This document shows, one piece after another, positions 1,690 through 59,443 of a DNA stretch of 64,000 nucleotides. The stretch comes from Haloarcula marina (GTDB lineage: Archaea > Halobacteriota > Halobacteria > Halobacteriales > Haloarculaceae): positions 248,001 through 312,000 of the forward strand of contig NZ_CP100404.1 in NCBI RefSeq assembly GCF_024218775.1, written 5' to 3'. Every line of letters begins with the position of its first letter. The first letter of the stretch is position 1. A program made the translations under genes and the position numbers. The notes under the pieces are model-generated. The model was given only the letters and a program-made list of their open reading frames with translations, made no database searches and was not told where the DNA came from.

Positions 1690-3198
1690 GTGAGTACGAC
1701 CGACCGCTCCGTCGACCTGACCGAGGGGCCGTTACTGCGCCCGCTGTTGGCCCTCTCACTGCCGCTCGTCGGCACACAGTTGTTACAGGTCGCGTACAAC
1801 CTCGTCGATACGTTCGTCGTCGGGCAGTTGGGCGACGGCGCTGTGGCGGCGCTGACCTACTCGCTGCCGTTCATCTTCCTGACTATCTCGCTGGGGAGCG
1901 GACTCACCGTCGCCGGGACGGTCCTCGTCTCCCAGCACCGCGGCGCGGGCAACGACGACCGGGTGCGGGAGGTGGCGGGCCAGACCATCGCCGTCACCGC
2001 CGTCGTCTCGGGCCTGCTCTCGCTGGTCGGATTCGGCCTCGCGCCGACGCTCCTGCCGTACATCGGGACGACGCCGGGGACGGCGATTCACGCGATGGCC
2101 GTCGAGTACACCCGCATCGTCTTCGCCGGGACGACGTTCATGTTCGGCGCGTTCGCGTTTCAGGCCATCCTGCGCGGGTGGGGCGACACGAAGACGCCGA
2201 TGTACCTCATGCTCGGAAGCGTCGTCGCGAACGCCGTCCTAGACCCCTTCTTCGTCCTCGGCTTCCGGGACAACGTCGTCTTCTCGCTGGTCGGCCTGGG
2301 CGGCCTGGAATCGACGCTGTACGCCATCACCGGCTTTGCGGGGATGGGCGTCTCCGGGGCGGCCATCGCCACCGTCATCGCGCGCGGCGGCGCGGCGCTG
2401 GCGGGCTTTTGGCTCCTCTTCTCGGGCCGACTCGGCCTCGCCGTCTCCCTTTCGGACCTCCGACCGGACGAGGAGACGGTCCGGAAGATTCTGGACGTGG
2501 GCGGTCCCGCGGGCCTCGAACGGTCGGCCGACTCGCTGGCCTACACCGGCATGACCGTCCTCGTCGCGATGGTCGGGACGGAGGCCGTCGCGGCCTACGG
2601 CGTCGGCAACCGCATCAACACGCTCGTCTACCTCCCGGCGGTGGGCCTCGCACAGGGCGTCGAGACGGCCGTCGGACAGAACCTCGGGGCCGACGAGGCC
2701 GGGCGGGCGCGCCGTGCGGTCCTCATGGCGGTGGGACTGGGCGGCGGCGTCTTCCTCCTCGCCAGCGCCGCGGCCTTCGCGTTCGCGGCGGCCATCGTCG
2801 CCGCCTTCTTCGACGTGAGCAGGACGGCACCGGAAGTCCTCTCGATGGGCGCGGACTACTTCCGAATCATCGGCCCTACCTACGTGTTCATGGGCCTCTT
2901 TCACCTGCTGAACGCCGCGTTCCGCGGGGCCGGGAGCACGCGGACGGCCCTCGGTTTCTCCATCGCCTCGCAGTGGTTCTTCCGCATCCCGCCGACGCTC
3001 GTGCTCATCACCGCCGTCGGCATGGGAGCGGCGGGCGTCTGGTGGGGCATCGCGTTCTCGCACGTCGCCGCCGCGGCACTGGTGGCGGTGTGGTTCCTCG
3101 TCGGCGACTGGGACGAGTCCGTCGTCGACGAGGGGAGCAACGAGGGAGCGAACGACACCGAGGAGTCTGATAGCGAGACGCCCGCAACGGCCGACTAA
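1690..3198 (+). CDS. MATE family efflux transporter (first of tandem pair)
   Basis: A 502-residue membrane protein with about 12 hydrophobic helices in two related halves, as in MATE (MatE) multidrug/cation-coupled exporters. N-terminal motifs such as PLVGTQLLQVAYNLVDTFVVG and the internal GWGDTKTPMYLM stretch are typical of the archaeal DinF-like branch. It starts at GTG 1690, with an AT-rich box near 1660-1668 about 25 nt upstream, which suggests a leaderless message. The C-terminus is an acidic, disordered-looking tail. Its closest relative in the window is the next gene (start 3307), which shares long stretches of identity, so this is a tandem duplication. Its substrate is unknown. Confidence 0.93.
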   Translation: MSTTDRSVDLTEGPLLRPLLALSLPLVGTQLLQVAYNLVDTFVVGQLGDGAVAALTYSLPFIFLTISLGSGLTVAGTVLVSQHRGAGNDDRVREVAGQTIAVTAVVSGLLSLVGFGLAPTLLPYIGTTPGTAIHAMAVEYTRIVFAGTTFMFGAFAFQAILRGWGDTKTPMYLMLGSVVANAVLDPFFVLGFRDNVVFSLVGLGGLESTLYAITGFAGMGVSGAAIATVIARGGAALAGFWLLFSGRLGLAVSLSDLRPDEETVRKILDVGGPAGLERSADSLAYTGMTVLVAMVGTEAVAAYGVGNRINTLVYLPAVGLAQGVETAVGQNLGADEAGRARRAVLMAVGLGGGVFLLASAAAFAFAAAIVAAFFDVSRTAPEVLSMGADYFRIIGPTYVFMGLFHLLNAAFRGAGSTRTALGFSIASQWFFRIPPTLVLITAVGMGAAGVWWGIAFSHVAAAALVAVWFLVGDWDESVVDEGSNEGANDTEESDSETPATAD

Positions 3199-3238
3199 TG
3201 CCGTTCGTGGGATAGATTCTCGTACTCACGGTAACGTT

Positions 3239-3264
3239 ATACTGACTGACCGACCAGTCAGTAT
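3239..3264. promoter_or_regulatory. TetR-type operator on the MATE promoter
   Basis: Perfect 10-bp inverted arms, ATACTGACTG (3239-3248) and CAGTCAGTAT (3255-3264), are separated by ACCGAC. The left arm overlaps a TATA-like TTATACTG (3237-3244), and the right arm ends just ahead of the predicted transcription start (about 3266). The same TGACTG/CAGTCA core occurs in the promoter of the tetR gene at 57378. Binding by that TetR protein is inferred, not shown. Confidence 0.75.
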
Positions 3265-3265
3265 C

Positions 3266-3310
3266 ATGTCGGTCTCCATCTCTTTCGTTCTCCGGAGGTG
3301 TCGACGGTGA
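3266..3310 (+). other. Candidate 14-codon leaderless upstream ORF coupled to the MATE start
   Basis: ATG at 3266 lies about 26 nt downstream of the TATA-like box, which is where a leaderless message would start. It opens a 14-codon frame (MSVSISFVLRRCRR) whose TGA at 3308-3310 overlaps the GTG start of the MATE gene at 3307 in the configuration GTGA. A Shine-Dalgarno-like GGAGG (3294-3298) lies inside it, 8 nt before that GTG. The geometry is seen directly; translation is inferred. Confidence 0.5.
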
Positions 3311-4797
3311 CCGCGACGAGCGAGCAGTCCGAGCGGTTCACGCAGGGGAGTCTGCTGTGGCCGCTCCTGACGCTGGCCGCGCCGTTAGTCGCCACGCAAC
3401 TGCTTCAGACGCTGTACAACATCGCCGACACGTTCTGGGTCGGTCGCCTCGGACAGGAGGCGGTGAGTGCCCTCTCCTTCTCGTGGCCCATCGTGTTCCT
3501 GCTGTTGGGCATCGGCGGCGGGATGACCGGCGCTGGCACGATACTCATCTCACAGAACACCGGCGCGGAGAACGACGACGAGGTGAGCCACGTCGCCGGG
3601 CAGACGCTCGTGTTCGTGACGTTCCTGTCGGTGGCGCTCGCCGCCGTCGGCTACGTCCTGACGCCGACGCTCTTGCAGGTAATCGGGACCGAACCGGGAA
3701 CGGCCATCCACGAGATGTCGGTCACGTACACCCGGTACGTCTTCCTCGGCATCTACTTCATGCTCGGCTTCTTCGTCTTTCAGGCGCTCCTGCGCGGGTG
3801 GGGTGACACGAAGACGCCGATGTACCTGATGGTCGGCAGCGTCGCGCTCAACGTCGTCTTGGACCCGATACTCATCCTCGGGTTCGCGGACAACCCCCTG
3901 TTCGCGTGGGTCGGTCTGGAGGGCGTCGCCGCGAGCGCACTGGCGGCGACTGGCTTTACCGGTCTGGGCGTAGAGGGCGCGGCCATCGCGACGATATTCT
4001 CGCGCGGCCTCGCGGCCGTACTCGGCCTCTGGCTCCTCTTTTCGGGCCACGTCGGCATCGAACTCTCGCTGTCGGACCTCCGTCCGGACTTCGCTGCGAT
4101 TCGGAAACTCGTCCGCATCGGTGCGCCGCTCAGCGTCGAGACCAGCACGCAGGCGCTGTCCGTGACGGTGATGACCGCGCTGGTCGCCATCGTCGGCGCG
4201 GACGCCGTCGCCGCCTACGGCATCGGCGGCCGCTTCGCCTCGCTCGTCTGGTTGCCGATGGTCGGGATGGGCATGGCCGTCGAGACGGTGGTCGGACAGA
4301 ACCTCGGCGCGGGCGAGCGAGCACGCGCCCGCCGGACGGTGTTCCTCGCCAGCGGCATCCTCGTCGGTCTGTTCCTCGTGGTGAGCGCGCTCACGGTCTC
4401 CTTCGCACCTGCCATCGTCGGCGTGTTCATCACCGGCGAGGGGGCCGCCGCCGTCGTCGACCACGGCGCGGACTACCTCCGCATCGTCGCTCCGACGTGG
4501 GCCGTGATGGCCGTCTTCCACATGATAAACGGCGCGTTCCACGGCGCGGGGTCGACCCGCCTCTCGATGGTGCTGGGTCTATTGACGATGTGGGGCTTCC
4601 GGGCCGCCGCGGCCACCGTCCTCGTCATCGTCGTGGGCATGGGCGCGCCCGGTGCGTGGTACGGCATCGCCGCCTCGAACGTCGCCGCCACCGTCGCCGC
4701 CGCGGTCTTCTTCTTCCGGGGCCGGTGGCTGGACGACGTCATCGACGACGAAGCGGGTGAGGACGTGGGCGACAGCGAGAGCGCGGCCGTAGCGTAA
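3307..4797 (+). CDS. MATE family efflux transporter (second of tandem pair)
   Basis: A 496-residue, roughly 12-helix MATE exporter, closely similar to the gene just upstream (for example GWGDTKTPMYLM and VGQNLGAG stretches). Two GTG starts compete. GTG at 3298 would overlap the GGAGG ribosome-binding site itself, while GTG at 3307 is spaced 8 nt from it and overlaps the stop of the upstream mini-ORF by GTGA, so 3307 is preferred. The promoter carries a TetR-type palindrome also found before the tetR-MATE operon at 57.4 kb, so control by that regulator is likely. The C-terminus is acidic. Confidence 0.92.
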   Translation: MTATSEQSERFTQGSLLWPLLTLAAPLVATQLLQTLYNIADTFWVGRLGQEAVSALSFSWPIVFLLLGIGGGMTGAGTILISQNTGAENDDEVSHVAGQTLVFVTFLSVALAAVGYVLTPTLLQVIGTEPGTAIHEMSVTYTRYVFLGIYFMLGFFVFQALLRGWGDTKTPMYLMVGSVALNVVLDPILILGFADNPLFAWVGLEGVAASALAATGFTGLGVEGAAIATIFSRGLAAVLGLWLLFSGHVGIELSLSDLRPDFAAIRKLVRIGAPLSVETSTQALSVTVMTALVAIVGADAVAAYGIGGRFASLVWLPMVGMGMAVETVVGQNLGAGERARARRTVFLASGILVGLFLVVSALTVSFAPAIVGVFITGEGAAAVVDHGADYLRIVAPTWAVMAVFHMINGAFHGAGSTRLSMVLGLLTMWGFRAAAATVLVIVVGMGAPGAWYGIAASNVAATVAAAVFFFRGRWLDDVIDDEAGEDVGDSESAAVA

Positions 4798-57349: not shown

Positions 57350-57363
57350 TGACTGACCAGTCA
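57350..57363. promoter_or_regulatory. TetR operator in its own promoter
   Basis: TGACTG (57350-57355) and CAGTCA (57358-57363) form a perfect 6-bp inverted repeat around AC, 15 bp ahead of the tetR ATG (57378). The position covers the likely TATA/start region. The longer operator at 3239-3264 shares the arms and most of the centre, suggesting the same binding protein and autoregulation here. Confidence 0.72.
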
Positions 57364-57377
57364 GTTAGTTACTACTA

Positions 57378-57974
57378 ATGAGCGACGGCGACCCCTCCGA
57401 GGACATCATGGGCGCGACGTATCGCGCGCTGTGTGCCCACGGCTACGCCGACCTGACGATGCAGGACATCGCCGACGAGTCGGCGAAGAGCAAAGCGGCG
57501 CTGCACTACCACTACGACAGCAAACACGACCTGCTGTGTGCGTTCTTGGAGTACCTCTACGACGGTTTCGTTGAGCGCACGGCCGACGTGGACGACGCGG
57601 ACTCCCACGAACGACTCCTCGCACTCGTCGACGCCGTACTGGATAAACCGGACGACGACAGCGAGCAGTTCGGAACCGCCATCCTCGAAATCCGCGCACA
57701 GGCCCCCTACGAACCGGGCTTTCGCGAGCGCCTGACGCGGTTCGACGACTATCTGGTCGACCGCCTGACCGACATCCTCGAAGCGGGCATCGACGACGGC
57801 ACGTTCGACCCGGAGATGGACTCCGAAGACACCGCGCGGTTCGTCGTCACCGTCCTGACCGGCGCGGCGACTGAGCGCGTCACCGCCGGCCGTCCAACCG
57901 AGTGTACCCGCCGGATGCTCACCGAGTACGTCGAGACGCACCTGCTGGCCGACACACAAGAGGTCGAGGCGTGA
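57378..57974 (+). CDS. TetR/AcrR family regulator
   Basis: A 198-residue TetR-type repressor with the N-terminal helix-turn-helix (about residues 14-55: YADLTMQDIADESAKSKAALHYHYDSKHDLL) and a helical ligand-binding domain with a C-terminal half typical of the drug-sensing group. Its TGA overlaps the GTG of the MATE gene by 4 bp (GTGA), showing a TetR-MATE operon. A palindrome upstream suggests self-repression relieved by a ligand also exported by MATE; another MATE gene at 3307 carries a matching site. Confidence 0.94.
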   Translation: MSDGDPSEDIMGATYRALCAHGYADLTMQDIADESAKSKAALHYHYDSKHDLLCAFLEYLYDGFVERTADVDDADSHERLLALVDAVLDKPDDDSEQFGTAILEIRAQAPYEPGFRERLTRFDDYLVDRLTDILEAGIDDGTFDPEMDSEDTARFVVTVLTGAATERVTAGRPTECTRRMLTEYVETHLLADTQEVEA

Positions 57975-59443
57975 GCGACGGGATACTCGCCCGCATCGGG
58001 AGCCTGTTCAAAGGGCAGGAGGAACTGGAACTCACCAGCGGCCCCATCGGGAAGCCCCTGCTGTACCTCTCCTTTCCCATCGTCATCACGAACCTCTTGC
58101 AGGTTGCGTACAACCTGGCCGATACGTTCTGGTTGGGCCAGTACAGCACGACGGCGCTGGCGGCCATCTCCTTCGCGTTCCCGATGATTTTCCTGCTCAT
58201 CTCGCTGGGGATGGGCCTCTCGGTGGCCGGGAGCGTCCTCGTCGCCCAGCACACCGGCGCCGAGGAACCCGAGAAGGCCGAGTACGCCGCCTCGCAGACG
58301 CTGACGTTCGCCGTCGCCGCGTCCCTCTTTCTGGGGACGGTCGGTTTCTTCTTCGTCGAGGACTTCCTGCGACTGCTCGGGGCCTCCCAGCAGGTCCTGC
58401 CGGGCGCGACGGGCTACTTACAGGTGGTCTCGCTCGGCCTGACGACGATGTTCGGCTTCTTCGTGTTCATCTCGCTGATGCGCGGGTCGGGCGACACCAT
58501 CACGCCGATGCTCGTGATGTTCGGGACCGTCGTCCTGAACATCGTCTTGGACCCGTTCCTCATCTTCGGGTGGGGCCCCTTCACCGAGATGGGCGTCGTC
58601 GGCGCGGCCGTCGCGACCATCTTCTCGCGAGGGCTGGCGTTCATCGTCGGCATCGCCATCATGCTCCGTGGCAACCGGGGCATCCAAATCAACCCGGCCG
58701 ACATGGTCCCGGACTTCGGCTATCTGAAGAAACTGCTCGCGCTGGGGATTCCGGCCTCGGTCGAAGGGACCGGCCGGGCGCTGTCGGTCAACGTGATGCT
58801 GTTCATCGTCGGGACGTTCTCCGTGACGGTGGTCGCCGCCTTCGGCGTCGGCATCCGCATCTTCTCGCTCGTGTTCATGCCCGCCATCGCGATGGACCGC
58901 GGCGTCGAGACGATGACCGGGCAGAACCTCGGGGCCGACCGGCCGGACCGCGCGGCGAAGGCGAACCACTTCGCCGCGAAAGTGTCGTTCGTCGTCTTGA
59001 CGGCGCTCGGCGCGGTCACCATCTTCGCCGCGCCCGCTGTCGTCAGCGTGTTCAGCGACGACCCGGCCGTCGTGAAAGTCGGCGCGGAGTTCCTCCAGTG
59101 GGTCGCGCCCACCTTCGGATTCATCGGCGTCGTTCGCGCCTACTCCGGCGGATTCCGCGGGGCTGGCAAGACTCTCACGTCGGCGGCGCTCGCGGTCCTC
59201 ATGCTCGGGGTCATCCGCGTGCCGATCGCGTGGGTCGCCTCGCGGCCGGTCGTGGTCCCGGCGTGGCTCGGGCAGTCAATCGTCGACCTCTTCGCCTTCT
59301 CGCTGGCCGAGCAAGGCATCTGGCTCGCCTTCGGCATCTCGAACGTCCTCGCGGCCGGTATCGCCCTCGCGTGGTTCCTCCGCGGGACGTGGCGCGACGC
59401 CGACCCGCGGGGCGGTCCCGACGCCACCATCGCCGACGACTGA
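57971..59443 (+). CDS. MATE family efflux transporter (TetR operon)
   Basis: A 490-residue MATE exporter starting at GTG 57971, translationally coupled to the preceding tetR. About 12 helices are visible in two halves (first repeat LQVAYNLADTFWLGQ, later MRGSGDTITPMLVM). The sequence is related to the pair at 1.7-4.8 kb (shared QVAYNLADTFW-type start, SLGMGLSVAGSVLVAQHTGA). Because tetR and this gene are one operon, the ligand is probably a toxic compound or drug-like cation exported by this pump. Confidence 0.93.
   Translation: MSDGILARIGSLFKGQEELELTSGPIGKPLLYLSFPIVITNLLQVAYNLADTFWLGQYSTTALAAISFAFPMIFLLISLGMGLSVAGSVLVAQHTGAEEPEKAEYAASQTLTFAVAASLFLGTVGFFFVEDFLRLLGASQQVLPGATGYLQVVSLGLTTMFGFFVFISLMRGSGDTITPMLVMFGTVVLNIVLDPFLIFGWGPFTEMGVVGAAVATIFSRGLAFIVGIAIMLRGNRGIQINPADMVPDFGYLKKLLALGIPASVEGTGRALSVNVMLFIVGTFSVTVVAAFGVGIRIFSLVFMPAIAMDRGVETMTGQNLGADRPDRAAKANHFAAKVSFVVLTALGAVTIFAAPAVVSVFSDDPAVVKVGAEFLQWVAPTFGFIGVVRAYSGGFRGAGKTLTSAALAVLMLGVIRVPIAWVASRPVVVPAWLGQSIVDLFAFSLAEQGIWLAFGISNVLAAGIALAWFLRGTWRDADPRGGPDATIADD

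Follow-up and report, generated by a model that had tools for sequence, protein, structure and literature searches.

The window analysed here comprises 64,000 nucleotides of Haloarcula marina DNA, positions 248001-312000 of contig C1 in genome G000, and among its genes are three for efflux pumps of the MATE family, all on the forward strand. MATE1 (1690-3198; Pfam MatE), an upstream paralogue of MATE2, is separated from MATE2 (3307-4797; Pfam MatE, E = 8.7e-61) by 108 bases, in which a TATA-like box, an operator-like repeat, the codon ATG 3266, a GGAGGTG motif and the tetramer GTGA are found. The TATA-like box, TTATAC (3237-3242), begins 29 nt 5' of ATG 3266. A TetR-type operator-like inverted repeat, TACTGACTGACCGACCAGTCAGTA, is located at 3240-3263, with its core ACTGAC-N6-GTCAGT at 3245-3262. 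From ATG 3266, a predicted leaderless mini-ORF of 14 codons (3266-3310, encoding MSVSISFVLRRCRR) extends to a TGA at 3308-3310, which overlaps the pump GTG at 3307-3309 to form GTGA at 3307-3310, a tetramer of the RTGA type. The Shine-Dalgarno (SD) motif GGAGGTG (3294-3300, with GGAGG at 3294-3298) lies 6 nt before GTG 3307 and is complementary over 7 nt to the 16S rRNA 3' end of this genome, GGATCACCTCCT. A sequence-only reading of the locus had described an ATG at 3266 opening 14 codons that stop on the pump GTG, a GGAGG between the two starts and a TATA-like box upstream, and every one of these elements was found.

The longest frame listed for the pump opens at GTG 3298. This codon was ruled out as the start by alignment of the orthologues, and GTG 3307 is the better start because the aligned position is ATG (five) or GTG (two) in all seven other orthologues. 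MATE1 has a TATA-like box of its own, TTATAT at 1659, 31 nt from GTG 1690, from which it seems to start directly at a predicted leaderless GTG.

For the genus, 32 genomes were searched. All of them code for some MATE protein, and this pump was identified at 68% identity or more in eight, the genome of the window included. The ATG frame is present in all eight orthologues, with 14, 14, 14, 12, 12, 12, 11 and 11 codons, and overlaps the pump by 4 nt in six of them and by 8 nt in two; the loss of the mini-ORF from close relatives that keep the pump, named in the sequence-only reading as evidence against its proposal, was thus not observed. Two net losses of 6 nt have left the overlap intact, as has a local shift of frame that is corrected a few bases further on. 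TATA-like boxes of the form CTATAC or TTTAC(A/G/T) are found 28-29 nt before the mini-ORF ATG in the orthologues. The encoded peptides fall into three types, MSV..., MFGP... and MVPV..., so that the architecture is kept (8/8) more than the peptide. The long operator is present in five of the eight and absent from G011, G001 and G003, and in G002 and G010 the SD reads GGTGGTG rather than GGAGGTG. Since operator and SD vary, the constant features are the promoter-proximal ATG, the open frame and the overlap.

These observations are best accounted for, in our assessment, by termination-reinitiation, which we consider the probable mechanism: leaderless initiation at 3266 would be followed by reinitiation at the pump, and the mini-ORF would be a stand-in for, or perhaps a remnant of, a repressor gene. 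The pump would be the second frame of a short two-frame transcript, the 5' end of which is predicted from the TATA-like box to coincide with ATG 3266 or to differ from it by some two bases at most. A ribosome would initiate on the bare 5' AUG, read the 14 codons, reach GGAGGUG shortly before the mini-ORF ends, terminate at the UGA within GUGA and reinitiate on the GUG of the pump. Free ribosomes would serve the pump start, 41 nt into the transcript, poorly or not at all, because SD motifs located in a 5' UTR are not used by haloarchaea, as published for Haloferax. What matters in the mini-ORF would be where it lies, that its frame stays open and where it stops, and not the peptide it encodes.

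The published basis comes from Haloferax volcanii, for which the accessible text of the studies gives the following. There, 72% of the protein-coding transcripts were found to be leaderless, mostly beginning on the start codon, and haloarchaea prefer to initiate translation at a 5'-terminal AUG (PMC4983044). SD motifs are inactive at 5' UTRs, whereas motifs of 6-8 nt near stop codons mark reinitiation, with a spacing of 5 +/- 2 nt; the SD is frequent at such sites and not obligatory (Kramer 2014, PMC3986360). For overlapping gene pairs, nine of nine were strictly coupled in translation (Huber 2019, PMC6728339), and coupling was lost by a stop-start distance of about 20 nt (Huber 2023, PMC10666635). 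The 6 nt between GGAGGTG and the pump GTG fit the reinitiation distance. The sequence-only reading had called the reinitiation SD-dependent; the term is too strong, because G002 and G010 retain the overlap with the degraded motif.

A transcript that starts elsewhere, either by readthrough from MATE1 into MATE2 or with a 5' end downstream of 3268, would take the mini-ORF out of its leaderless position. Only 67 nt separate the end of MATE1 from ATG 3266, and MATE1 and MATE2 have the same orientation and are adjacent in at least six genomes of the genus. However, a BRE/TATA-like sequence and the operator are well placed in the orthologues, and both promoter and mini-ORF are retained in G001 and G003, where no MATE1 match adjoins, so that this explanation is regarded as improbable.

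The sequence-only reading had described the layout as that of a translational coupler or attenuator. In an attenuator, slow translation of the mini-ORF, caused for example by a Cys codon or a drug, would change the RNA structure or stall the ribosome. Leaders of this kind are frequent ahead of efflux and resistance genes. All eight peptides from Haloarcula have a Cys near the C-terminus, as do the f6 peptides of L103 and L107, and Cys attenuators have been proposed for mycobacteria (Shell 2015, PMC4633059, as far as its accessible text goes). Against this stand the folding of the leader, which gave z = +0.85 for the window and +2.19, +2.32 and -0.19 for three orthologues, the lack of peptide conservation outside the close group and the absence of a common motif from the stubs of other lineages. 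None of the four leaders was more stable than its shuffles (|z| > 1 in the stable direction), and the structural form of attenuation is unsupported for these sequences. The Cys itself would largely follow from GGAGGTG being read in the frame of the mini-ORF. Attenuation is therefore judged very unlikely, and the coupler half of the earlier proposal is the one favoured by position, overlap, SD distance, conservation in all eight orthologues and the published haloarchaeal rules.

The Cys codon is located near the mini-ORF end (3296-3304 in the window) in all eight Haloarcula peptides and in the L103/L107 pair; L107 has it in a sequence devoid of GGAGG, and L007 is also among the Cys-bearing cases. 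Probably it arises incidentally, from translation of the SD region in the frame of the mini-ORF.

That the product of the mini-ORF is itself a functional micropeptide can hardly be expected. Within the closest group, the residues MSVP...RCRR are common to four orthologues, as such a function would have it, but beyond this group the peptide diverges fast, to MFGPFSLRRWCR and MVPVWRCLRDE, and no common motif extends to other lineages.

The layout as it occurs in one genome is not improbable by chance, and exceeds chance expectation only weakly. When the window leader was shuffled by dinucleotides with start codons and distance fixed, the frame was open and overlapping in 92% of the shuffles, and the same test on the Haloarcula leaders gave 0.80-1.0. 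The evidence within the genus is thus moderate, because short frames in GC-rich DNA are mostly open once frame and distance are given, and the eight orthologues are a phylogenetically dependent sample. The surprise in a single genome is limited to the frame and the RTGA tetramer, for which we estimate a chance of roughly 0.15-0.3. Among 18 short ORFs predicted to be leaderless in a 464-kb sample of this genome, 10 were coupled to a following start, where shuffled sequences gave 7.1 on average and 11 at most, so that no significant excess of such couplings was identified in this sample. A count of simple motifs in it looked enriched, and its significance was gone after shuffles; a comparison with the other frames (10 versus 1 and 0) carries a bias, since genuine start codons are confined to the gene frame. 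The case rests on conservation and recurrence for this reason.

Further predicted leaderless short ORFs that overlap the start of a long ORF by 1, 4 or 8 nt were noted at L293:628, L300:12693, L290:7313 and L289:8032, and the same class is represented in the genome sample at L296:18040, L303:15048 and L286:4000. The long ORF at L296 resembles pyruvate kinase, as judged by eye.

The arrangement could be a chance by-product, in which case the pump would have a short 5' UTR and be translated alone, and the frame opened by the 5' ATG would be untranslated or irrelevant. The openness of short frames in this base composition, the genome sample with its insignificant excess, the frequency with which a start codon is followed by A and the weak score of the window site in the promoter matrix described below are all in line with this. 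Opposed to it are the retention of the mini-ORF in all eight orthologues despite indels, its recurrence in lineages with unrelated stub sequences, and two published properties of haloarchaea, as far as the accessible text of the sources goes: a 7-nt SD close to a start is seldom found in the 5' UTRs of Haloferax and is characteristic of reinitiation sites (PMC3986360), and a 5'-terminal AUG is the favoured start (PMC4983044). On balance, the chance explanation is considered unlikely. The mini-ORF arrangement is real and conserved, and most likely it is a coupler that delivers ribosomes to the pump.

Recurrence was followed across the order in 342 genomes, in 146 of which the pump was identified at E <= 1e-120. 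The upstream regions of 85 order loci and the eight genus loci were read, 93 in total. In 56 of these, tblastn revealed a TetR gene upstream of the pump, which is the commonest arrangement, and typically this gene overlaps the pump. In front of many of the upstream TetR genes there is a TATA-like box together with an operator; their predicted start is leaderless, and their stop overlaps the pump as NTGA. The remaining 37 loci consist of the eight from Haloarcula, 12 labelled as mini-ORF type, seven whose leader is structured and of another kind, and 10 in which the arrangement is unclear. Additional mini-ORF cases came from named genomes, namely L049 of Halogranum amylolyticum, L051 of Halostagnicola and L068 of Natrialba. 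In some lineages, stubs of 15-51 codons, predicted to be leaderless, fill the TetR slot and are nested among TetR-type pumps; no shared peptide motif was found among the stubs of these other lineages. One order-wide pattern search was too strict and gave matches in only three of the 342 genomes.

The pump gene is frameshifted or interrupted by one in-frame stop in some relatives, among them Halostagnicola sp. A56 (L051) and several loci from the order-wide search, which suggests decay of the pump or sequencing error.

A promoter matrix was trained on the TetR-type promoters, for which 55 starts had been placed; it is blind to the position of the stop. It was scanned over 45 non-TetR loci, comprising the 37 above and eight named ones. 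The best start scored 4.5 or more in 10 of the 45, and in nine of these 10 its frame ends 4 nt inside the pump as NTGA, where the cut-off of 4.5 was picked after the scores had been seen and a cut-off of 2.5 gives 11 of 16 instead. In the tenth high-scoring locus, L160, an ATG two bases upstream of the best start opens a frame that ends inside the pump in this way. The matrix is weak on Haloarcula, where it ranks the mini-ORF start first in just two of the eight loci; in the window its start scores -1.9, lower than GTG 3307 (-1.3). Five stubs of the Natrialbaceae group (46-51 codons) contain no stop in 244 in-frame codons, compared to six and five in the other frames. An exception is the operator-bearing locus L161, the first ATG frame of which runs 20 nt into the pump. 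The starts of L103 and L107 lie about 37 nt after the TATA-like box, as counted by eye, and are near-leaderless at best because of this distance.

The phylogeny was calculated for 99 pumps, with the duplicate L139 omitted. L051, with its frameshifted pump, and the distant L068 distorted the first tree and were excluded from the second. The labels m, T, L and o were assigned after the loci had been seen, and L037, labelled o, was later found to have a five-codon leader. With these labels, the mini-ORF-type pumps are scattered among the TetR-coupled pumps and are not monophyletic (p-AU 0.00041); nine changes were counted, eight of them forced by starred branches. L049 is sister to a TetR-type pump, L149 lies inside TetR-type pumps, and L103 and L107 are sisters of the TetR-type L101 and L102. 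The stub of L049, which overlaps its pump by 4 nt, begins VSDDLSLPDTHETSRRA, and sequences like VSSDSVPTAPPDVHEEVMRA form the N-termini of the TetRs that accompany related pumps; compared to five TetRs, shuffle p values of 0.001, 0.005, 0.009, 0.053 and 0.44 were obtained for it. The L149 stub matches its sister TetRs in the end codons only (GTGACC ... GTCGAATGA), and its peptide has no significant similarity to them (p 0.20-0.28).

In the pump tree, the next outgroup of the Haloarcula clade is TetR-type. The TetR promoters of L104 and L112 read TATACTGACCAGATAGTCAGT...ATG, similar to TATACTGACTGACCGACCAGTCAGT...ATG at the mini-ORF of the window. The Haloarcula mini-ORF is too short for a comparison with TetR peptides, and no sequence similarity links it to TetR. 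Because related lineages have a leaderless, pump-overlapping TetR gene in the same slot, the simplest view is that the mini-ORF is the minimal residue of, or a substitute for, such a gene, and perhaps it descends from one. More broadly, it is conceivable, though we hold it only tentatively, that the TetR gene of a TetR-MATE operon was whittled down in several lineages to a predicted leaderless stub of 11-51 codons, with control then exerted by a TetR in trans. Such a stub could not be lost, because only ribosomes terminating on it would reach the pump start.

The nearest relatives outside Haloarcula, the sister clade of the pump, carry a different leader (L037, L040, L089-L092 and L094-L096; for example L091:1105-1314 and L095:1124-1333). 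Here, a near-leaderless ORF of five codons (MSAAL*, MRAAL*, MLAVL* or MPAVL*) follows a TATA-like box, and hairpins follow the ORF. The first hairpin is GGGCC(U/C)G...C(A/G)GGCCC, with a U-A/C-G swap in five and four of the nine sequences, and a second lies beyond; the pump start is located 190-590 nt further 3'. No Rfam match was identified for this leader in the three loci tried.

The promoter upstream of the mini-ORF had been described as TetR-controlled. This is plausible, since the operator-like repeat is exact in four and one base off in one of the eight orthologues, but operator and mini-ORF are separable, because the three genomes lacking the long operator retain the mini-ORF. The operator was thereby ruled out as the reason for the mini-ORF. 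The long form of the operator is unique in the genome of the window (G000) with up to three mismatches allowed, and a pattern with a variable centre was matched exactly in five of the 32 genus genomes, always at this pump.

A second exact operator core, ACTGACCAGTCAGTTAGT, was identified at 57352-57369 on the forward strand, just 5' of the start of a gene for a TetR-family regulator (57378-57974, forward strand; TetR_N 39.3 bits versus a cut-off of 24). Its partner 3' is MATE3 (57971-59422, forward strand, the end being the last matched base and not the stop codon), and the TGA of TetR overlaps the GTG of MATE3 at 57971 as GTGA. The window contains an intact TetR-MATE3 pair and a stub version with the same operator core, and the three MATE genes considered here have three apparent start modes: direct for MATE1, stub-coupled for MATE2 and TetR-coupled for MATE3.

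The core ACTGAC-N6-GTYAGT has just two sites in the 3.74-Mb genome, at 3245 and 57352, and in G018 it is likewise found at these two places only. Rarity of the core is weak evidence, because a control with the reversed pattern also gave one site (one forward and one reverse match). What counts is that both sites fall between the TATA region and the start. In G002 and G010, the operator at the pump is kept, and that of the MATE3-linked TetR has drifted. A TetR of the 57378 type is present also in genomes devoid of the pump operator, and no TetR restricted to operator-bearing genomes was found on scanning the loci. Five TetR_N matches were identified in the genome, and the four besides 57378 have unlike upstream repeats. 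Where the operator is kept, repression of the promoter at 3237 would occur in trans, and the TetR at 57378 is the most likely repressor.

Leaderless coupled small ORFs are a known kind of element, because cases from mycobacteria have been published (Shell et al. 2015, PMC4633059). According to the accessible text of that study, the mycobacterial examples are, like the present one, short unannotated frames whose TGA forms RTGA with the next start, and their architecture outlasts the peptide sequence, as in Haloarcula. The mycobacterial frames begin with a 5'-terminal RTG, whereas here the 5' end is predicted from the TATA-like box 29 nt upstream; they are bacterial and were identified by mapping of transcription starts and ribosome profiling, while the Haloarcula case is known from sequence alone. 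The termination-reinitiation pairs of Haloferax volcanii likewise have the 4-nt overlap and an SD within the upstream frame, and an SD in a 5' UTR does not bring about de novo initiation there, but in the accessible text of these studies (PMC6728339, PMC10666635) the upstream partners are ordinary genes and not frames of 11-14 codons with no evident product. Short uORFs of 15-31 amino acids also precede genes, some of them for transporters, in Haloferax volcanii (Babski 2016, PMC4983044); in the accessible text, these lie inside UTRs of 150-250 nt and are taken to encode possible small proteins; they are not described as couplers that overlap a start. The haloarchaeal TetR-MATE operons share the TATA-like box, operator, leaderless first start and NTGA overlap with the pump, and differ in that the first frame is a TetR gene of 190-260 codons and not a stub. 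In the open-licence literature, as far as the accessible text of the papers goes (PMC11721430, PMC6728339, PMC10666635, PMC4983044 and PMC3986360 among them), no description of the arrangement in haloarchaea was found. What is new relative to mycobacteria is the archaeal occurrence, the slot of a repressor gene and the recurrence.

If this reading is true, leaderless initiation together with obligatory coupling would limit how archaeal operons lose their first gene: the first frame may shrink to about a dozen codons, yet would have to retain its first and last codon. Unannotated mini-ORFs would be predicted before other haloarchaeal genes, and seemingly misplaced pump starts would be accounted for. 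It would also pose the question of the minimum number of codons required for termination-reinitiation, which could be measured with the existing Haloferax reporter system.
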